The position numbers and the translations under genes were made by a program. 64,000 nucleotides of DNA, from assembly GCA_001768325.1 (NCBI GenBank), contig MENQ01000007.1:62001-126000 (forward strand), written 5' to 3'. This stretch comes from Bacteroidetes bacterium GWC2_46_850. GTDB taxonomy: Bacteria; Bacteroidota; Bacteroidia; Bacteroidales; Dysgonomonadaceae. Under the pieces are notes generated by a model. The model did not search any database. It was not told where the DNA came from and worked only from the letters and a program-made list of their open reading frames with translations. This document shows, in pieces, positions 27,497-36,938 of this stretch (position 1 is its first letter; each line of letters begins with the position of its first letter).

Positions 27497-27513
27497 GACG
27501 CTCCCGGTAAATA

Positions 27514-27558
27514 CCCCTAAAAGGGGGTTTTATCCTTCCTTCTGGCTGATTATCTTTG
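27514..27558 (+). promoter_or_regulatory. Palindromic operator and -7 box of the TPR-kinase operon
   Basis: CCCC-TAAAA-GGGGG (27514-27527) is followed after exactly 23 bases by the -7 box TATCTTTG (27551-27558). No TTG lies at the -33 position. The operator recurs with the same 23-base gap before the OmpA/TPR operon at 36840-36884 on the other strand, which argues for an activator-dependent promoter. Confidence 0.65.
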
Positions 27559-27632
27559 ATGATTAAATCCCGATGATAGATGGTTCTGTAAAACAAAATA
27601 CTGATACGCTTATGATTAACCTAAAAAACACG

Positions 27633-29567
27633 ATGAGGCTCAAGAAAATAATTTCAATGAACTTGCTGCTTGCCGGGTGGTGCTGCCTTACGACAAGCGG
27701 ATATGGCCAGAATTTGGATAGCCTGGAACAGCAATTGTCCCGCACCAATCTCTCTGCAGAAGAGTATTTGCGTGTCTGTGACGATTTGAGTTGGAGCTTC
27801 CTGGATGATGATTTCGAGAAATCAAAAAAATATGCTTCCATGGGGATAGAAAAAGCCCAATTGGCACAAAACCCGTCAATGGAAGCCAGACTGTACCGCA
27901 ATTTGGGGGTGGCCTATTACATGAACAGCCAGATGGACTCGGCCCAGCTCTTCCTGAATATATCTCTGGAAAAAGCACTCAAATTGAAGGATGAAAGACT
28001 GGAGGCTCTTGTCTATGGCGCCATCGGAAACATCCATAATGTGACGGGTAATTATCACGAGGCGCTCACCTTTTACCTGAAAGCACTTGCCATGTTTGAA
28101 CTGCAGGGAAACAAGGAACGGATCAGATCCCTGCTTGGAAACATCGCCACTTTGTATTACAGTCTGCTGAACCTGAACCAGGCAGAAAAATATTTTCTGC
28201 AACTCGAGAAGGAGAGCCAGCCGGCACACGATATGTACAATTTAGGGCGTGCTTACGACGGATTGAGCAGGATCGCACTTAAACGCAAAGATTTTGACGC
28301 CTCACTGAACTATGCCGCATCAGCAGCGGAGATCTTTCATGAGAGCAACCAAAAAACAGCCGAGGCCATCGCCCTTCAGGGCATAGCCATGGTCCACTAT
28401 ACCCATCACAGGGATTATGCCAAAGCCAAAGAATACGCACTGAAGGCATTGGAGCTCACGAAAGAAACAGGCTATCAGGCTCAAATTTCCGGATCGTTGA
28501 ATATCCTGTCCAATATTTATTTCAATGAAAAGGATTATGAAAACTGTCTTCAAACTGCCCGTGAGGCCATCGAGACGGATACAACCGATGCCAACGTCAC
28601 CACAAATTTGTATGCCAACATGGTACGTGCAGGTATTTTTTTGCATCACACAGACGAAGCACTGTTTTATTTTGATAAATACCGTGCTTTGATCGATGAC
28701 CGGTCTACACGAGAATTTGAGCTGTCTATAGCCGAACTGGAAAAGAAATATGAGACCGAAAAAAAGGAGTTACGTATTGGCACGTTGGAAAGAGAACGGA
28801 AACTGTATGGAATCATCCTCTGCACGGGCCTGTTGATTCTGTTGCTCCTTTTGCTGCTACTCTATCTCCGACAAAAATCGGTGCGAAACAAAAAAAAGCT
28901 GGCCGAACAAAAAATCATTCAACTGCTACAGGAGAAACAGATTGTTGCCACTCAAGCCGTGCTGGATGGCGAGACGGCTGAACGCTCCAGACTGGCGCGT
29001 GATCTGCACGATGGTTTAGGCGGGATGCTCTCAGCTGTAAAATTAAACCTGTTTGATATGAAACAAGATGTGATCGTGGAAGCGGAAGATGTGATCCGCT
29101 TCAACAAGGTGATGGAGATGCTGGATAAATCCATGCAGGAACTACGCCGTGTGGCTCATAACATGATGCCCGAATCGTTGTCGAGGTATGGGTTGAAAGT
29201 AGCCCTGGAAGATTTTTGTCGTAGCTTTTCCAACATCAGCTTCCATTTTTTCGGCGAGGATCGGCGAATCAATCAGAAGACCGAGAACACCTTATACCGA
29301 GCGGTTTTCGAGCTTATCAACAATGCCGTAAAACATGCACAGGCTGAACAAATCAATGTCCAGGTCATCCAGCAGGCCGACAGGATTTCCATTACGGTAC
29401 AAGACAACGGCAAAGGTTTCGATCTCCAAAGGGCCACAAATGGAATAGGACTTCAAAACGTCAGGAACCGCATCAGTTCAGTCGGCGGCACGGTAGAGAT
29501 ACACTCGGTGAAAGACCGGGGCACAGAGATAACCATGGAAATAGATATCCATCATGACAGCAAGTGA
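27633..29567 (+). CDS. TPR-containing sensor histidine kinase (HisKA_3 / NarX-LuxR class)
   Basis: A 644-residue sensor kinase. It has a signal peptide (MRLKKIISMNLLLAGWCCLT), a periplasmic array of about six to eight TPR-like helical repeats (about 30-330), a coiled-coil, one membrane helix (about 391-413), then the dimerisation/phosphoacceptor motif RLARDLHDGLGG with His459. The ATPase domain has ELINNAVKHA, DNGKGF and GIGLQNVRNRI. ATG 27633 gives a proper signal peptide; a longer frame from 27573 starts almost at the predicted transcript end. The response regulator gene overlaps its end by 14 bases. Confidence 0.9.
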   Translation: MRLKKIISMNLLLAGWCCLTTSGYGQNLDSLEQQLSRTNLSAEEYLRVCDDLSWSFLDDDFEKSKKYASMGIEKAQLAQNPSMEARLYRNLGVAYYMNSQMDSAQLFLNISLEKALKLKDERLEALVYGAIGNIHNVTGNYHEALTFYLKALAMFELQGNKERIRSLLGNIATLYYSLLNLNQAEKYFLQLEKESQPAHDMYNLGRAYDGLSRIALKRKDFDASLNYAASAAEIFHESNQKTAEAIALQGIAMVHYTHHRDYAKAKEYALKALELTKETGYQAQISGSLNILSNIYFNEKDYENCLQTAREAIETDTTDANVTTNLYANMVRAGIFLHHTDEALFYFDKYRALIDDRSTREFELSIAELEKKYETEKKELRIGTLERERKLYGIILCTGLLILLLLLLLLYLRQKSVRNKKKLAEQKIIQLLQEKQIVATQAVLDGETAERSRLARDLHDGLGGMLSAVKLNLFDMKQDVIVEAEDVIRFNKVMEMLDKSMQELRRVAHNMMPESLSRYGLKVALEDFCRSFSNISFHFFGEDRRINQKTENTLYRAVFELINNAVKHAQAEQINVQVIQQADRISITVQDNGKGFDLQRATNGIGLQNVRNRISSVGGTVEIHSVKDRGTEITMEIDIHHDSK

Positions 29568-30186
29568 CAAAGTCAACATCCTTATTGTGGATGACCATCG
29601 CATACTGGTGGAAGGGTTGAAAAAACTCTTTGCCCACTCGGAGACCATTCAAGTGATGGGTGTGGCATACACCGGCAAAGAATGCCGAAATGTGATATCG
29701 AAAGCTATTCCCGATGTAATCTTACTCGATATCAACTTACCCGATGTCAGTGGGATTGATCTCTGTAAAGAAATAAAAGAACAGTATCCTGAGATAAAAA
29801 TCGTTGCATTATCCAGTTTCAATGAGTACGCCATTGTCCGCCGGATGTTAGAGAACGGTGCTTCCGGGTATGTGGTAAAAAATGCCATGCCCGAAGAGAT
29901 CATCATGAGCGTGGAGATGGTGATGTCTGACGAAACATTCCTTTGTGATGAAATCGATCTCCTGATGCGAAATCGCTCCCACAATCCCGTGTGGCTCACA
30001 CCCCGTGAAAAGGAATTGCTGCGTTTCATCGTGGATGGGTTCACCAATTCGGAGATTGCCGAGAAAATGTTTCTTGGCGTGGAGACCATCAACGGATACC
30101 GCAAGAATCTACTGGTAAAACTGGGAGCAAAAAACACAGCCATGATGGTTCGCATGGCACTGGAACAAAAACTGGTGTTGGTGTAA
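29554..30186 (+). CDS. LuxR-family (NarL-type) response regulator
   Basis: A 210-residue response regulator, cognate to the overlapping kinase gene. The receiver domain has the acidic pair Asp13/Asp14, phosphoacceptor Asp59 in LLDINLPDVSG, and the switch residues in VALSSF and YVVKNAMPEE. The C-terminal LuxR-type helix-turn-helix is LTPREKELLRFIVDGFTNSE to the VETINGYRKNLLVKL recognition helix. It should bind inverted-repeat DNA as a dimer. The CCCC-N5-GGGGG palindromes before its own operon and before the convergent OmpA/TPR operon are the obvious candidate sites; that is inference. Confidence 0.93.
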   Translation: MTASDKVNILIVDDHRILVEGLKKLFAHSETIQVMGVAYTGKECRNVISKAIPDVILLDINLPDVSGIDLCKEIKEQYPEIKIVALSSFNEYAIVRRMLENGASGYVVKNAMPEEIIMSVEMVMSDETFLCDEIDLLMRNRSHNPVWLTPREKELLRFIVDGFTNSEIAEKMFLGVETINGYRKNLLVKLGAKNTAMMVRMALEQKLVLV

Positions 30187-30203
30187 CCTGCATGGCAGAT
30201 AAA

Positions 30204-31067
30204 TTACGGCGTATCCTTTGATTTCCTTTGGAACATTTTATTCATCTCCTGTACTGCATCGAAGGGACTCATTGCACCTTCGGCCTCAACATTATAAGAA
30301 TAAGTTCTCAGCATTGATTGATAGAGATCTCTTAAGGCTGTCAAACCGACTGATCCCGATGCAATCCTGTAACCATCCACCATGAAATTATCCAGCTTCT
30401 CCACAATGGTAGCCAATTTCTCATACTCCTGCAGCATCTTTTGAAGATTTTTCCTGTTCCTCTCATCCACCTCTTTGTGAAACTTTAACCGGTTGTGATA
30501 GATTTGTTGTTCTAATTGTTTTTTTCTTTGCTGATTTCCTGTCGAGGCAGGTTGACTTCTGAGTTCCACCAACTCATAATTAAGGGGTTCGTTCAATTTT
30601 ATCAGTGAATCAATGCCCTCCCGCCATTGGTGCAAAATATCCAGTTCATTCTCAGCAAGAGGCATTGTGATCGCCGTATACTGATCATAAATCTCCTCCC
30701 ACTCTTTTTGAGCAGCATCAATCTTATTCAGTTTCTCCAGATCAAAAGGAACAGACTTATTGTCTCTTATTCTTTGTTTCTCTTTCTCTGCTTCTTCACA
30801 ATCATAGAGCTGTTCGTTAATGATCGCCAATTTCTCCTTGTAACGCTCAATATCTGTTGGACTGGCGGTAAGTGTATTTTCCGGAATCGATGGAAAACTA
30901 CGCAATATGCGCAGATAGTTGTAGTCCGGGTTGTTTTGTATCAACAGAGTTCCATTGACCGTTGTCATCCCATCTCTCATAGACAGATCACTGTGCTGTT
31001 CTCCATAGCTGTGCGTCATACACAACATTGCAATAATGACAAAATTGAATTTATTCATCTGATTCAT
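30204..31067 (-). CDS. Exported coiled-coil protein of unknown function
   Basis: A 287-residue protein and last gene of the OmpA/TPR operon, 6 bases after the 699-residue TPR protein gene. It has a signal peptide (MNKFNFVIIAMLCMTHSYGE, counted from the second Met) and is otherwise rich in charged helices. Heptad-like stretches around residues 65-100 and 165-235 (KKQLEQQIYHNRLKFHKEVD, then RKNLQKMLQEYEKLATIVEK) suggest a coiled coil. It has no lipobox, no membrane anchor and no family I recognise. It probably acts in the periplasm with the two TPR proteins. Confidence 0.7.
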   Translation of the reverse strand: MNQMNKFNFVIIAMLCMTHSYGEQHSDLSMRDGMTTVNGTLLIQNNPDYNYLRILRSFPSIPENTLTASPTDIERYKEKLAIINEQLYDCEEAEKEKQRIRDNKSVPFDLEKLNKIDAAQKEWEEIYDQYTAITMPLAENELDILHQWREGIDSLIKLNEPLNYELVELRSQPASTGNQQRKKQLEQQIYHNRLKFHKEVDERNRKNLQKMLQEYEKLATIVEKLDNFMVDGYRIASGSVGLTALRDLYQSMLRTYSYNVEAEGAMSPFDAVQEMNKMFQRKSKDTP

Positions 31068-31073
31068 ATTTTT

Positions 31074-33173
31074 TCAGTTACTTGTTTCCCTTGCTACTCC
31101 TCCCAAAGATATCTTCGTTCTTGGGGAAGAAACCATGCCTATGTCGCTTGAAATTCCAATGGATTTACTCACAGAAACGGGTCCCATTCCTACTTTGGCA
31201 CCTACCTCCGATTTTACCGCCCATCCTGTGAAATCACCTGCTTCATTAAACTTGAGCGATATGCCCTCCTTGGCGGTGGCACTTACGCCACCCACACCGG
31301 CTTTAACACCTACAAGGACTGTAATTTCGGTATCTCCGTTCTTTATGTTTCGTTTAAATGATCCTCCAATACCTTGTAAATATTCAATTTCCCATGTTTC
31401 ACAGGTGATGCCAATCCCTATTGCCCCCATATCAAAAGTGATTTTTTGATCCTTGAAGGGGCAATCATCCACTTCTTTTTCGGGTACTTCAATCTTTTTT
31501 ACCGGTGAAAGTTTATATTGATTCAGGTCTTCATCCTTGGTCACAATGGGTGCGAAAAAATCGGCCAACGCATAGCCCTGAGGTAATAAAGAAAAATCGG
31601 TTGCGATGGGTAACAGACTGATGTAAACGGTTAATTCCCGAATGTCGTTGAAATAATTGACTGCATCCTGATCATACATATCTCCAGCCACCTGGTAAGC
31701 TACATTCCAATATTCATAAAGCAATATCTTTACGCCCCGATAGGTCTCCAATGTCATATCCCTCCATTGAATAAAATGATCATCGGCAAGGGCAGAGGCA
31801 CGCTTGTTGATATCCCTGGCAAGTTGTTTAGACTTGTAGTAATCATTCTCCAGCACGTACTTCATCATCTGCTTATATTCACCACTTTCCTTCAAATTGT
31901 CCAGTTCCTTCTGAAAAATCTCATCTGCCATTTTTCTTCTCGCTGAATTTTTATTGTATTCCTGCTCTATTTTTTGGGTGTAATAATCATTTACCAGCTC
32001 CAACATGAATAATTTCTGTCCATAGGAAGGCAACAACTCAACACTTTCAATACTCCCCATTTCAGAAGAAGAGTCTTCAAATAAATCATTGTCTTCATCG
32101 TCACCGTCTCCATCACCTTCCTCATCCGGATATGAGTCAGTCTCATAATCATCTAGGGCTTCCTCCAACTCGTCGGCATGGTAGGTGGCAGCAAATTGCA
32201 ATCCCCCTGCCATGCTCTTCTCCATCACATCCTGTGAGAACTCAACCAGATTGGATAAGGTAAACATAAACGCTTCCCTGCTGACCCATCTCGGAAAAAC
32301 AGGCAGTTTCAACTGATCATCCTGCGACTTCTCCTGCTCACCTTGGTCCTCACCTTGTTGATCTTCTTCCCAGAAAGGAGCATCAACATGTTCTCCACCT
32401 TTTACGGCCTCCCTGAATCCCTTCCGCATGGAAGCTGAAAATCCCAGTTTGCCCGCCTTGATAAGCTCATCTATGGCACGCCTGCTATCTTTTTCATGGA
32501 GATATACTCTCGCCATCCCTTCATGGGCCGCACAGAAAAAATCATCGTATTTGATGGCCTCCCGATAATTTTCTTCGGCCTCTGCATACATGTTCAGGTC
32601 AATATAGGCGTTACCGAGATTTGTCAGGATCATCGGAGAACGTGGATCTAAGGTTTTCGCATAAATAAATATAAGGATAGGATCATCGAAGCCCTGAGAA
32701 ATATGTTTCACATCGACATCATGCAACGCACGCAGGATAGCACCAAAATTATTCACGAGTAGCGGATCCACCGGATCAGAAAGCGCCGCTAACGCAGACA
32801 TCACGATGGGCATTTTCTCCAGTGTGGAGGCGGCGGAAGCCATCACTGCAATGGCAGACAGCTCAGCGGCATAGGCTCCATTTACCTTTAATCGTTCTTT
32901 AGCGCTGTTTATCCGTGATTTTTCAATAAGATCAAACGTATCGTAATAGATGTCGATCTGTTTCTGGCATAATTTGGTGAAATCTTCCTTTGTTATTTTC
33001 AAATCACCCTTATCTCCACCCTGTTCACCGACTTTGAAAGAGATGTTCCTCTCATTGATGACGGCACTGTTGATGGTCCGATCCCGAGCCAAAAGGTTCA
33101 AGGAAGAACACCACAAAAAAGTGATGATGATTCCTGTAAAAATTCTCATGCTTTTAATCTTAATGCGAATCAT
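31074..33173 (-). CDS. Exported TPR protein with glycine-rich C-terminal domain
   Basis: A 699-residue protein (691 if the ATG at 33149 is used, giving the cleaner signal MRIFTGIIITFLWCSSLNLL). TPR units lie at about 150-240 (LTNLGNAYIDLNMYAEAEEN, then AAHEGMARVYLHEKD). An acidic stretch follows (about 345-370, DEEGDGDGDDEDND), then a helical region to about 560. The C-terminal 130 residues are Gly/Val-rich predicted beta strands, starting CPFKDQKITFDMG with ITCETWEI and GGSFKRNIKNGDTEITVLVG. This last domain is homologous to the C-terminus of the upstream 718-residue protein. Function unknown. Confidence 0.75.
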   Translation of the reverse strand: MIRIKIKSMRIFTGIIITFLWCSSLNLLARDRTINSAVINERNISFKVGEQGGDKGDLKITKEDFTKLCQKQIDIYYDTFDLIEKSRINSAKERLKVNGAYAAELSAIAVMASAASTLEKMPIVMSALAALSDPVDPLLVNNFGAILRALHDVDVKHISQGFDDPILIFIYAKTLDPRSPMILTNLGNAYIDLNMYAEAEENYREAIKYDDFFCAAHEGMARVYLHEKDSRRAIDELIKAGKLGFSASMRKGFREAVKGGEHVDAPFWEEDQQGEDQGEQEKSQDDQLKLPVFPRWVSREAFMFTLSNLVEFSQDVMEKSMAGGLQFAATYHADELEEALDDYETDSYPDEEGDGDGDDEDNDLFEDSSSEMGSIESVELLPSYGQKLFMLELVNDYYTQKIEQEYNKNSARRKMADEIFQKELDNLKESGEYKQMMKYVLENDYYKSKQLARDINKRASALADDHFIQWRDMTLETYRGVKILLYEYWNVAYQVAGDMYDQDAVNYFNDIRELTVYISLLPIATDFSLLPQGYALADFFAPIVTKDEDLNQYKLSPVKKIEVPEKEVDDCPFKDQKITFDMGAIGIGITCETWEIEYLQGIGGSFKRNIKNGDTEITVLVGVKAGVGGVSATAKEGISLKFNEAGDFTGWAVKSEVGAKVGMGPVSVSKSIGISSDIGMVSSPRTKISLGGVARETSN

Positions 33174-33215
33174 GTTTTCAGTATGGTAACAATAGCCGTT
33201 ACCATCGTTTATAAT

Positions 33216-35372
33216 TTATTTAGACAGTAAATCCGAAATACTGGGAAGGCTCATTCCCGCCGATGCATCAATGGAGGGTCCACCCTCAAGGGCAAAACGA
33301 CCACTCACCTCTCCCTCTACCAGTCCACCCAAGCCAGCCTTCACACTGCTGGTGAAAGCCACATCCTTTACCGCATCACCCTGCCCGATGGTGATCTCCA
33401 TCCCCAGGGTAGCCTCGGCTGTGATATTTCCACTACCATATTCACCTTTGACACCCACGCCTCCCCAGATTGTGGTTTCATGTTTATTAAAATCGCGTTT
33501 TACTGACCACAGCAACCCTTCACCTCCCGATAACTTTACATGATCGCAGCTGAGTTCAAAGGAGAGTGGACCTATGCCTCCTCCAATGCCATTTTCACCC
33601 AGGGGACACTCCTTCTTACTATCTAATGACAATGCGGCTTCATCAACCTCAACGGGAGGATCGGGTGGTGCTGGTTCAACACAAATCATCTGATTGAGTT
33701 GATCGGCAAGGGGTGGAATTCCGGCAGCAAAAACAGTATTTGTCTCTAAATGAATAATTACTATTAGCTCACGATAGATATTGTAATACTCATTTAAAGC
33801 GGGAGCATATATCCTTTCTATGATTGGATTGGTAAAGGCATAAAAATCAGGAATAGCTTCATTCAACGTGCTTGCAACCAATGTGTAATATCTGCAATAA
33901 GCTGAGAACGTGGATTCCAAATCACTTTTTTGCAACTTGCAGAGGCGAAACTGTAATTGCTCAGCTTCATATTGAACCTTTTCAATTTTTGCTACCACCT
34001 TTTTCTGACAGGATTCATTGTTACCACATGCCGCTAACTCTTCTATGAGCTTGGATAAATCATTTTGTAGCTGTAATAATTGTTCCATCATTTGTGTAAT
34101 GGTAGGTAAATGCTGCTCCATACGCTCGGCATTATCCTTAAGCAATTCTGATCCCTGTTGTAATGCACGTCCGTAATTGCTGTTTTCACCCAACAGCAGT
34201 TCGGCAATATCGTTGATATGCATGATCTCTTTCGAAAAATCACGCTGGAAGACTACCGCGTTGCCTGGATCCTTTGTGGCACGCATCTGTTGGATTCTCA
34301 TCCGTTCCATCACCGCATGAAGCTGAGACATCAATTCACTTTTACGTCCTGTAAGTTGTGTATGATATCTTTCGAAGGGTCGCTTCTGTTCCACCATTTT
34401 GCCTACATCCTCATGCACAGGCAAATCGGGAATATTAAGACCCTGTACATTCCCTTTCTCATTTGTCAGCGGTCTTGGCTGACTACTCTGGCTCTGTGAG
34501 GGAGACTTTGCAGCTTGTGCCTGCTTCATGGCGCTAAGACCTACCTCGGAGAACTTTTGCCCCAGTGCTTTTCGCAGGTATTGCTCCGCCTTGAGGTGAT
34601 TGTTCTCACATTGGGCAATCAATCCCAGTCCCAGCCAGGGCGAGCTCATCTTGGGCGCCACCCGCAAAGCCTTTTCAAACATCAACGTAGCGTTCGCGTT
34701 GTCACCTACTTCTCGATAAGTCCACCCCATGTTGCAGAGAACAATGCCGATGTTTGGTTTTAACTGATCGGCATACTGTAACACCTGTAGGGCTTGGGAG
34801 TAGTCGCCCATGTCCTTCAGTGCCACACCCAGGTTGTTGGCCGTAAGCAGATCATCCGGCGACCGGGCGGCGCTCCATGCAATGGCATAGACCGAGGCCG
34901 AGCCAGCCCCCGACATCACAAATGCAGCACCCATGTCCGCACCATCCGTCTGCCTGACCGACTTCTCCAACATCCGTCTCAACTTCTGCAAATCACCTGT
35001 CTTTGGTCCATAGAGCGTCATAAGTGATTGTGCCAACTGTACATACCCTGCACGCGTAAGTGGCGGTTTGACAGCCAATTTAATTTTCTCGGGACAAGGA
35101 TTTCCAATGCCTGCAATGAACGTTTTCCCCATAGGGGGTTCTGAGGTATGCGCTTGCAGCGCATCCTTACCCTTTTTATTCTCCTTTTCCCCGTATTGTT
35201 GCTCCAAGGTGTTACCCCACTCTTCCAACCGGATATTCTCCTGTTCAGTAAGTTCTTTTCCGGTAGATGCCTTCTCCAGGATCCGTTGAATATCTTTGGG
35301 CATTTGCATCTGGGCGCACACCACTCCCGTGTAAATCATCAACACGAGCAAACAGACAGCAATCTTCTTCAT
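33216..35372 (-). CDS. Exported TPR protein with glycine-rich C-terminal domain (paralogue)
   Basis: A 718-residue exported protein with signal peptide MKKIAVCLLVLMIYTGVVCA. It has three TPR units (about 165-285: LTANNLGVALKDMGDYSQAL; VLCNMGWTYREVGDNANATL; PWLGLGLIAQCENNHLKAEQ), a Ser/Gln-rich linker, and a long helical domain with a CGNNESCQKK cysteine pair. The C-terminal domain begins near CPLGENGIGG and continues SFELSCDHVKL, LLWSVKRDFNKHETTIWGGVG. That domain matches the downstream 699-residue protein in layout and key residues (CP, C, S-x-KR, T-x-I-x-GV). No family is recognised; an envelope role is inferred. Confidence 0.75.
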   Translation of the reverse strand: MKKIAVCLLVLMIYTGVVCAQMQMPKDIQRILEKASTGKELTEQENIRLEEWGNTLEQQYGEKENKKGKDALQAHTSEPPMGKTFIAGIGNPCPEKIKLAVKPPLTRAGYVQLAQSLMTLYGPKTGDLQKLRRMLEKSVRQTDGADMGAAFVMSGAGSASVYAIAWSAARSPDDLLTANNLGVALKDMGDYSQALQVLQYADQLKPNIGIVLCNMGWTYREVGDNANATLMFEKALRVAPKMSSPWLGLGLIAQCENNHLKAEQYLRKALGQKFSEVGLSAMKQAQAAKSPSQSQSSQPRPLTNEKGNVQGLNIPDLPVHEDVGKMVEQKRPFERYHTQLTGRKSELMSQLHAVMERMRIQQMRATKDPGNAVVFQRDFSKEIMHINDIAELLLGENSNYGRALQQGSELLKDNAERMEQHLPTITQMMEQLLQLQNDLSKLIEELAACGNNESCQKKVVAKIEKVQYEAEQLQFRLCKLQKSDLESTFSAYCRYYTLVASTLNEAIPDFYAFTNPIIERIYAPALNEYYNIYRELIVIIHLETNTVFAAGIPPLADQLNQMICVEPAPPDPPVEVDEAALSLDSKKECPLGENGIGGGIGPLSFELSCDHVKLSGGEGLLWSVKRDFNKHETTIWGGVGVKGEYGSGNITAEATLGMEITIGQGDAVKDVAFTSSVKAGLGGLVEGEVSGRFALEGGPSIDASAGMSLPSISDLLSK

Positions 35373-35427
35373 ACGGTTTTCATGGGTTAAAAGTGATCAT
35401 GACAGCCTGCTCCATTCATTTTACAGT

Positions 35428-35454
35428 CTTTCCGGGCGCAATATGCCCGGAAAG
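35428..35454. other. Hairpin between ompA-like and TPR genes
   Basis: A perfect 10-bp stem CTTTCCGGGC (35428-35437) with GCCCGGAAAG (35445-35454), 7-base loop, in the 114-base spacer inside the operon. Neither strand has a T-tract after it, so it is more likely an RNA processing or stability element than a terminator. It could set different levels for the OmpA protein and the TPR proteins. Confidence 0.6.
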
Positions 35455-35486
35455 ATCAACTGTAGCAGATGCATTCGTTTCTCCTC

Positions 35487-36809
35487 TTAATTGGTCTTTA
35501 CAAACTCAACACGCCTGTTTTGGGCTTTGTTAGCCGGGGTATCATTGGCAACGATCGGTTTACTTTCGCCTGCACCTTCGGTCTCCATTCGCGATGCATC
35601 AATACCGAACGTGCTCACCAACTCACTTTTCACCGCTGCGGCACGTCGTCTGGATAGTTCCATGTTCTTGGTATCATCGCCATCGCTGTCGGTGTGGCCG
35701 ATAATTTTCACCTTCACGCCTTCATTTTCCTTCAGTACATCGGCAATGCTTTTCAGTGTACCGAACGACTCAGGCTTAACTTCTGCCTTGTTCACATCGA
35801 AGGTGATGCCATAGGTGATCAGCTTTCCTTCGGTAATCAGCTTGCTGCGTGTATCGGGCGATGCGGTCGTAACTTTCAGGTTCGTTATGTACGGCGTACT
35901 ATATCGATCCCATCCCGAAAAGCGCATGCGGTTAAAAGTCACACCGGGATAGATGTTGGTAGGCACATCCACAACTTTCTCGTTCTGGTGGTATATACGT
36001 ACTCTTCGTTTTTGCACCCAAATGATTACATGGTTTTCTTTTTCGCGGATTACCGGATTCTTCGTAGCCTGTCCGGTAATCCAATCTTCCGTTTCCCGGT
36101 AACCCTTGGTATCCCATCTGTCATATCCCAGGTCGACATGAAGTCCCGCCTCACCGGGATACAAATCGTCGTTCAACTCTTTTGCATCGACTGCTTTCTC
36201 CTGGTAGAGTGTGAACTGAATCCCATATTGATAATTCTCATCGGGAATAATGTCAAACTCAACGATAAAATTGTCCGGGAATGCTATGGGGCGATTGTAA
36301 CAATAGACCGCATCATCACCGTTAAGATGAAACCATTTGCCCGGTGCGATGTTCACTGTTTTCACCTCGCCACTGCCGTTCGAGCTCCACAATGCCGGGA
36401 AGTCGCCTATGGCATCCTGTGAGAAGTCGTCGAAGAAGAGGAGCTGATCGCCCGGCACAAAATCATACTGACTGCTGCTGGTCAGTTTCTGTGGTGAACT
36501 TTTTGAAGCAGTTTGCTTCTTGTCTTGTGCACTCTTCTTCGAAACAGTGTCGTTGCTTTCTGCCGGGGAGCTCTCTTCGTCCTGATCGTGGGATGCTGAC
36601 TTGTCGCCTTTCTCTTTTTTAGTCACTGACTCCTCCGCCTTATCCATCGCATTCTCGGTGGCCTCCTCCGCTTTCTGCTCCACCCGTCGTTCCACGGCAT
36701 TCTTTGCCGCCTCCTTGGCGGCATTACCCAATTTGTTCAGCCATTTCTGTGCATCGGCCTGCGTGGTGAACAACAGGCAAAAACTTAAAAGGATAAGTAC
36801 TCTTTTCAT
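35487..36809 (-). CDS. OmpA-family protein with lectin-like domain
   Basis: A 440-residue exported protein and first gene of the four-gene envelope operon. It has a signal peptide (MKRVLILLSFCLLFTTQADA), an Ala/Glu/Lys-rich helical stretch (about 25-75), a low-complexity linker, a beta-sandwich of concanavalin-like type (about 120-315, with DDFSQDAIGDFPALW and HVIIWVQKRRVRIYHQNEKV), and a C-terminal OmpA peptidoglycan-binding domain (about 330-440). The last shows YGITFDVNKAEVKPES, IIGHTDSDGDDTKN, LSRRRAAAVKSEL and NRRVEFVK. It should anchor the system to peptidoglycan; the sandwich may bind a glycan. Confidence 0.88.
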   Translation of the reverse strand: MKRVLILLSFCLLFTTQADAQKWLNKLGNAAKEAAKNAVERRVEQKAEEATENAMDKAEESVTKKEKGDKSASHDQDEESSPAESNDTVSKKSAQDKKQTASKSSPQKLTSSSQYDFVPGDQLLFFDDFSQDAIGDFPALWSSNGSGEVKTVNIAPGKWFHLNGDDAVYCYNRPIAFPDNFIVEFDIIPDENYQYGIQFTLYQEKAVDAKELNDDLYPGEAGLHVDLGYDRWDTKGYRETEDWITGQATKNPVIREKENHVIIWVQKRRVRIYHQNEKVVDVPTNIYPGVTFNRMRFSGWDRYSTPYITNLKVTTASPDTRSKLITEGKLITYGITFDVNKAEVKPESFGTLKSIADVLKENEGVKVKIIGHTDSDGDDTKNMELSRRRAAAVKSELVSTFGIDASRMETEGAGESKPIVANDTPANKAQNRRVEFVKTN

Positions 36810-36839
36810 GATAACTTTGTTTTAATAATGGTCAGGAGA

Positions 36840-36884
36840 CAAAATTACCCGACAAACTTTGAACAAAACACCCCCAAAAAGGGG
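36840..36884 (-). promoter_or_regulatory. Palindromic operator and -7 box of the OmpA/TPR operon
   Basis: Read on the minus strand: CCCC-TTTTT-GGGGG (plus-strand 36884 to 36871), 23 bases, then TAATTTTG (36847 to 36840), about 30 bases before the ompA-like start. Operator layout and the 23-base gap are the same as before the kinase operon at 27514-27558. No correctly spaced TTG is present. Confidence 0.65.
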
Positions 36885-36938
36885 TTTTTCAAAAATAAAA
36901 TGTGTCATAAGGATGGGGTAAAATCAGTCAGATGGTGT

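Follow-up and report, generated by a model that had tools for sequence, protein, structure and literature searches.

The window analysed here, the whole 64,000-nt stretch of contig MENQ01000007.1 from Bacteroidetes bacterium GWC2_46_850, contains two convergent operons, each of which is preceded by a 16-bp palindrome. One operon encodes a sensor histidine kinase with tetratricopeptide repeats (TPR) and a LuxR/NarL-type response regulator (RR). The other, the target operon, encodes an OmpA-domain protein, two TPR proteins and a further protein. The palindromes are candidate operators of the RR and are called operators 1 and 2 below. The features lie at the following window coordinates.

27513–27528: operator 1, ACCCCTAAAAGGGGGT, 16-bp palindrome 5´ of the kinase operon, conserved in orthologs
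27551–27558, + strand: −7 box TATCTTTG of the kinase/RR operon, 22 bp from operator 1
27573–29567, + strand: TPR-sensor histidine kinase (Pfam TPR_12, HisKA_3 and HATPase_c)
29554–30186, + strand: LuxR/NarL-type RR (Response_reg and GerE), the proposed binder of both operators
30204–31067, − strand: 287-aa protein with a signal-like N-terminus, without firm family, last gene of the target operon
31074–33173, − strand: TPR protein of 699 aa with a signal-like N-terminus
33216–35372, − strand: TPR protein of 718 aa with a signal-like N-terminus and a very conserved C-terminal domain
35487–36809, − strand: OmpA-domain protein (OmpA, 8.3e-24), first gene of the target operon
36840–36847, − strand: −7 box TAATTTTG of the OmpA operon, 22 bp from operator 2
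36870–36885: operator 2, ACCCCTTTTTGGGGGT as read on the − strand, 16-bp palindrome 5´ of the OmpA operon, conserved in orthologs

The kinase matches TPR_12 (1.1e-16), HisKA_3 (6.6e-11) and HATPase_c (2.5e-15) in Pfam, and its true start may be a later ATG than 27573. Its gene overlaps the RR gene by 14 bp. The RR matches Response_reg (2.3e-26) and GerE (4.1e-15), and so combines a receiver with a GerE/LuxR helix-turn-helix and has a HisKA_3-type partner kinase in the same operon, as expected of a NarL/FixJ (LuxR-type) RR. All four target-operon proteins have signal-like N-termini, as judged by eye, and family searches on the exported proteins of unclear family returned nothing firm.

The motif CCCC-N5-GGGGG occurs exactly twice across the window, at 27514–27527 and 36871–36884, where an earlier interpretation made from these letters alone (the sequence-only reading) had placed it. 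Its symmetric 16-mer form is ACCCC-N6-GGGGT, with the halves ACCCC and GGGGT 6 bp apart at both sites. The −7 box, of the form TAnnTTTG, lies 23 bases from CCCC-N5-GGGGG in both promoters, as that reading had counted, and 22 bases from the 16-mer. The N5 parts differ, also as described there, and both are A/T-rich, like those of the relatives' sites. Its statement that neither promoter has a TTG at −33 needs a qualification: the OmpA promoter has a TTG 16 bases before the TA on the − strand, although this is nearer than the usual spacing of the −33 element in such promoters. Operator 1 starts 16 bases past the stop of an MFS gene and has a short T run, and operator 2 sits between two divergent gene starts.

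Geometry and conservation of the proposed operator-promoter unit

Two bare CCCC-N5-GGGGG matches in 64 kb are not significant alone, because 15 of 100 shuffles of the window held two or more. Among the five bare matches in the window's own genome, only the window's two have TAnnTTTG within 15–31 bases on either side, both at 23. The genome-wide scan for the motif before TAnnTTTG, which the sequence-only reading had proposed as a check, gave 2 exact sites in the own genome with box and spacing required and no control match; the control, here and below, is the reversed motif scanned in the same genomes. That reading had considered chance unlikely, and had named scatter at random positions and lack of conservation in relatives as what would overturn it. 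Its judgement of chance, which concerned sites with matching spacing, stands. Bare matches turn up at roughly the frequency expected by chance, but no such scatter is seen once the box is required, and the site with its box is conserved in relatives.

The exact-site pattern was ACCCC-N6-GGGGT, with N6 fixed, and TAnnTTTG 18–27 bases downstream. It was scanned in 39 genomes of the genus, taken to be Proteiniphilum, 393 drawn in the order and 395 drawn in the phylum. Within the genus, a promoter accompanies 24 of the 100 palindromes; these 24 serve 29 promoters in 14 of the 39 genomes, with no reversed controls. The spacing is 22 bp in 26 of these promoters, 23 bp in two and 21 bp in one. These counts are not independent, because G011 and G062 carry nearly identical sequences. 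Across 32 promoters chosen from the genus, order and phylum scans, operator positions 8–9 are always A/T and positions 6–9 are never G. The operator lies directly upstream of, facing, or upstream of the cluster of 15 of the 18 OmpA genes of at least 50% identity. Site and spacing are thus conserved in the related genomes, a comparison that had also been proposed. A search with OmpA gave 70 named loci that total 1.117 Mb; 6 of them have the site at 22 bp with no more than one mismatch, and none matches the control. This result is not separate evidence, because 5 of the 6 seem to belong to genomes G005, G011, G025, G027 and G062.

Several relatives use one palindrome for two promoters. In G013 the kinase and OmpA genes point away from each other, and both promoters are served by one palindrome, at 22 and 23 bp. 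A single variant palindrome, AGACCCAAAAGGGAGT, lies between divergent kinase-side and OmpA-side promoters in G002 and G015, at 22 bp from each, with a small open reading frame between the variant site and OmpA in G015. On contig C95 of G036 the variant faces OmpA at 22 bp, and the kinase side is without a box match. The one-sided pattern of the variant operator occurs in 5 genomes (G002 and G015 at the module; G009, G013 and G025 elsewhere) and once in the control. A third operator, ATCCCCCAAAGGGGGT, lies in the own genome at about 201087 of G000:C16, with a −7 box 22 bp away on each side. It is flanked by a paralogous TPR-kinase/LuxR RR system (42% and 53% identity) and by divergent genes that encode two proteins with signal-like N-termini. 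Because this operator precedes a paralogous system in the same genome, the two RRs may share an operator code.

Outside the genus the exact operator is seldom found: 9 of the 393 order genomes and 2 of the 395 phylum genomes match, the own genome being included in each. Besides the own genome, the order matches are G341, G327, G401, G345, G374, G391, G397 and G418. The site lies at a kinase/RR homolog in G341 (22 or 23 bp), G327 (21 bp) and G401 (22 bp); for the last five genomes the spacings are 23, 26, 23, 18 and 27 bp, and a kinase/RR homolog is absent from the stretch fetched. The second phylum match, G432, belongs to another order of the same class and has the operator between a kinase/RR pair and divergent genes, at 22 bp on both sides. 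It brings to four the genomes outside the genus with the site at a homologous kinase/RR pair.

On another contig of G401, three copies of the operator precede genes for a small protein, an OmpA homolog (30% identity) and a DUF3108-like protein. These three near-identical operator-promoter units before three separate genes lie within about 4 kb (L195:6657–10678, G401:C206) and are perhaps duplicated promoters.

Operators precede DUF3108-like protein genes in both G327 and G401, and Yip1 plus DUF3108-like genes in G005; G003 has similar sequences by eye. In G341 the gene after the operator encodes a DUF5018 protein whose beta-helix match is sub-threshold, and further targets in relatives are without a Pfam match. 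By eye, most operator targets look like envelope or exported proteins.

Linkage to the kinase and the response regulator

Kinase-positive genomes number 18 of the 37 genus genomes in the kinase search: 17 with E below 1e-80, plus a contig-end fragment in G009 (53% identity, 1e-37). G012 (33% match, 3e-27) was counted as kinase-negative, the line having been drawn after the table was seen, and G061 and G062, which were not in the kinase search, were left out of the co-occurrence count. Exact sites occur in 13 of the 18 kinase-positive genomes and in none of the 19 kinase-negative ones (Fisher 2.4e-6, uncorrected for relatedness). The other five kinase-positive genomes carry altered forms, seen on inspection: G002 and G015, with the AGACCCAAAAGGGAGT variant; G008, with a 7-base centre; and G007 and G022, with ACCCG-AAAAA[G/T]-GGGGT at 23 bp upstream of the whole cluster. 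Of the 61 genus and order genomes searched, 46 have matches to kinases of this TPR type, most of them weak.

Thirty loci (L036–L065) were picked by the kinase alone, 19 from the genus and 11 from other families; the site, defined as at most one mismatch or the variant at 21–23 bp, was present in 12 of the former and none of the latter. The seven genus misses comprise degenerate kinase-side sites (G035 and G025), sites beyond the locus (G007 and G022), contig-end cuts (G011 and G005) and G012. Of 24 distinct RR genes with at least 45% identity to the window RR (duplicates collapsed), 22 have the site in their locus, G025 being counted by its OmpA-side site; many of the loci compared had been fetched for holding the motif, which counts against this tally. 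No site was found in the loci of 10 RRs below 40% identity, though most of these loci span only 3.6–4.8 kb.

In one variant lineage the recognition helix of the RR differs along with the operator. Both RRs that adjoin the AGACCCAAAAGGGAGT variant read NNYRKK, and the other 22 read [N/K/R][G/S]YRKN. This covariation is carried by two genes, because the G002 RR is not in its contig.

Within the remaining RRs, those with a K-S recognition helix (own C16, G432 and G401) go with a CAAAG-type operator centre (L193:7088–7103, L263:9447–9462). Those with an N or R helix go with centres that are mostly AAAA/TTTT; G007 and G022 (K-S) are exceptions to this pattern.

Regulatory interpretation and alternatives

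The architecture of the system resembles FimS/FimR of Bacteroidales, in which a TPR-sensor histidine kinase is likewise paired with a LuxR-type RR. In Porphyromonas gingivalis, the available parts of the published accounts describe FimR as activating mfa1 by binding directly at its promoter (PMC1974823), and FimS as a periplasmic TPR sensor kinase whose signal may be a protein (PMC1974823, PMC5706477). Unlike FimS, the kinase here scores 68.9 bits against an NCBIfam FimS equivalog cut-off of 600. The targets differ as well, being OmpA/TPR proteins here, and the operator motif is unnamed in those parts of the FimS/FimR accounts. The kinase/RR pair is thus taken to work like FimSR and is not filed as FimSR, because the architecture fits and the score is far below the cut-off.

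The RR has the same architecture as NarL, and in both systems an inverted-repeat site lies just upstream of the promoter. The half site ACCCC/GGGGT resembles the NarL consensus TACYYMT. Unlike the NarL 7-2-7 operator, whose 7-mers are 2 bp apart, the halves here are 6 bp apart (with a 7-bp centre in G008) and stand at a near-fixed 22 bp from a Bacteroidota −7 box. E. coli NarL activates at ogt from −44.5, according to the text available (PMC7419079). The best sequence match of the RR among solved structures is DevR/DosR of Mycobacterium tuberculosis. The DosR box is palindromic and G/C-rich with an A/T centre, and its polarity, GGG..CCC, is opposite to that of the site here. Host, kinase type and targets are also unrelated to those here. 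DevR/DosR is described as a NarL-subfamily RR that controls dormancy genes in the accessible portion of that account (PMC3029386). By profile or sequence match, VraR is of the same superfamily as the RR and LiaS of the same superfamily as the kinase. VraR/LiaS-type systems have envelope-related outputs. The sensor here differs from LiaS in being a TPR array, and it scores 96 bits on the LiaS profile against a cut-off of 450.

Quite probably, the two palindromes are operators through which the RR at 29554 activates both its own operon and the convergent OmpA/TPR operon. Sequence comparison itself yields the site, the near-fixed spacing, the conservation, the use in both directions and the linkage to this RR subfamily. 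We infer that the RR binds, that it activates rather than represses, that phosphorylation is required and that sensing is periplasmic. The sequence-only reading had proposed one activator for both operons, most simply this RR. A single shared regulator is supported by the conserved site and spacing, the palindromes shared between promoters, the co-occurrence with the kinase and the helix-operator covariation; activation is argued from position only.

Class-II activators sit near −41.5, next to the core promoter. The right half of the palindrome falls where the −33 element is expected from its consensus. If the −7 box occupies −12 to −5, as mapped in Flavobacterium in the available part of that study (PMC9723704), the palindrome spans −50 to −35 with its centre at −42.5, a position that probably points to class-II activation. 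By analogy with FimSR, the TPR region of the kinase, which probably faces the periplasm, would sense an envelope signal, perhaps a protein, and would phosphorylate the RR. An RR dimer would then bind ACCCC-N6-GGGGT centred at about −42.5, replacing the −33 contact, and would recruit RNA polymerase at its own operon. Bound RR would likewise switch on the convergent exported OmpA/TPR set.

Several observations weigh against this proposal. Bare matches are near chance in the own genome (5 against 7 reversed controls), and so are bare ACCCC-N6-GGGGT palindromes in the genus (100 places against 71). A genus scan with 2 mismatches at fixed spacing gave 83 matches against 42 controls, and an own-genome scan with 3 mismatches gave 34 against 33, nothing above chance; because this last scan adds nothing, the detectable set of the own genome comprises 3 operators and 4 promoters. 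The compared genomes include many close relatives. The operator was not found at three of the 18 OmpA genes of at least 50% identity (G008, G032 and G042), and the degenerate kinase-side sites of G035 and G025 belong here as well. Of the nine matching genomes outside the genus, five are without a nearby kinase/RR, two of them at 23 bp (G374 and G397). G005 (L206:5059–5675) has its RR in two overlapping frames, no adjoining kinase and an intact OmpA operator, so another RR may use the operator. In G023, which is without the module, an intact −7 box still lies at 22 bp.

The bare matches near expectation are what a coincidence of two G/C palindromes with two promoters would predict; such a coincidence is scarcely credible given 29 genus promoters against no reversed controls and sites at homologous pairs in other families. 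A reading of the palindromes as intrinsic terminator hairpins draws on a terminator scan that lists both sites and on the place of site 1 behind the MFS gene with its short T run. Hairpin form and place fit an intrinsic terminator at 27513 only. At operator 2 and several sites in relatives, the genes on either side start there and run outward, with no known transcript ending in between, and the 22 bp to the −7 box, on one or both sides, would be left unexplained. Terminators alone are highly improbable, and a double role as operator and terminator is possible at site 1.

A site that touches the −33 region could also block RNA polymerase, so that the operator would be real and the cognate RR would bind but repress, or autorepress, both promoters. 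The near-fixed spacing and the half site at the −33 position fit activator contact better, and activation is the precedent in the available accounts of NarL at ogt (PMC7419079) and FimR at mfa1 (PMC1974823); repression is an unlikely option. The main reader of the operator may instead be a different protein, such as a global regulator or the paralogous RR on contig C16. That second RR of the own genome resembles the first in its recognition helix and lies by a very similar operator, and G005 keeps its OmpA operator without an intact neighbouring kinase/RR pair. Within the genus, however, exact sites track this kinase family, and in the variant lineage a changed helix goes with a changed operator, which makes a different main reader improbable.

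The kind of regulator is already known; the operator is new, and its geometry is unusually rigid and often two-way. No description of an operator for a TPR-kinase/LuxR system of this type came up in the literature searches. An operator whose near-fixed geometry is visible in the sequence itself would make the regulons of such systems predictable and open to direct test. The operator also ties the sensor to particular exported proteins (OmpA, TPR and DUF3108-like), a hint at what these systems watch over.

Loss of the module and further observations

The candidate loss cases come mostly from draft genomes in many contigs. At about 32815 of G030:C70 (L269:7816–7831), the module is gone and the order is MFS gene, one intact palindrome without a box, and proS. 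The left flank of this palindrome matches the kinase-side flank of G003 at 73 of 80 bases and the OmpA side at 24 of 80; on the right, it is the OmpA/proS-side flank that aligns, and the kinase side does not. Because the flanks are hybrid, the ends of the G030 deletion appear to be the two operators. In G003 both operators are ACCCCCAAAAAGGGGT and share one orientation with respect to MFS and proS, although on separate contigs; they would thus be 16-bp direct repeats.

Decay is seen in other relatives. In G023 (L302, about 8675) the module is missing between MFS and proS, and the palindrome retains 8 of 10 half-site matches. G029 (L301, about 10387), also without the module, has a remnant upstream of proS with 9 of 10 half-site matches and a changed −7 box. 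That G023, G029 and G030, all without the module, retain no more than remnants there speaks for the proposed operator role. G025 has a 333-aa kinase remnant, its degenerate kinase-side site and an intact OmpA-side site. It is conceivable, but rather doubtful, that several paralogous TPR-kinase/LuxR systems of one cell, sharing nearly the same rigid two-way operator, form a cross-regulated envelope network, whose movable module can be lost in a single step via the operator repeats that bracket it.

In G004, the palindrome ACCCCTTTTTTGGGGT lies at a contig end upstream of proS (L292, G004:C143), and the module is on another contig.

In the 718-aa TPR protein, the last ~130 residues (33216–33620) are far better conserved than the remainder across four orthologs, and a Pfam search with them gave no family match. 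The predicted fold of this protein had a mean pLDDT of 53, with the C-terminal domain below 50, and was not used. The six named contigs closest to the OmpA protein comprise three of Proteiniphilum and others of Bacteroidales, Porphyromonadaceae and Sphaerochaeta, the last probably a binning error.

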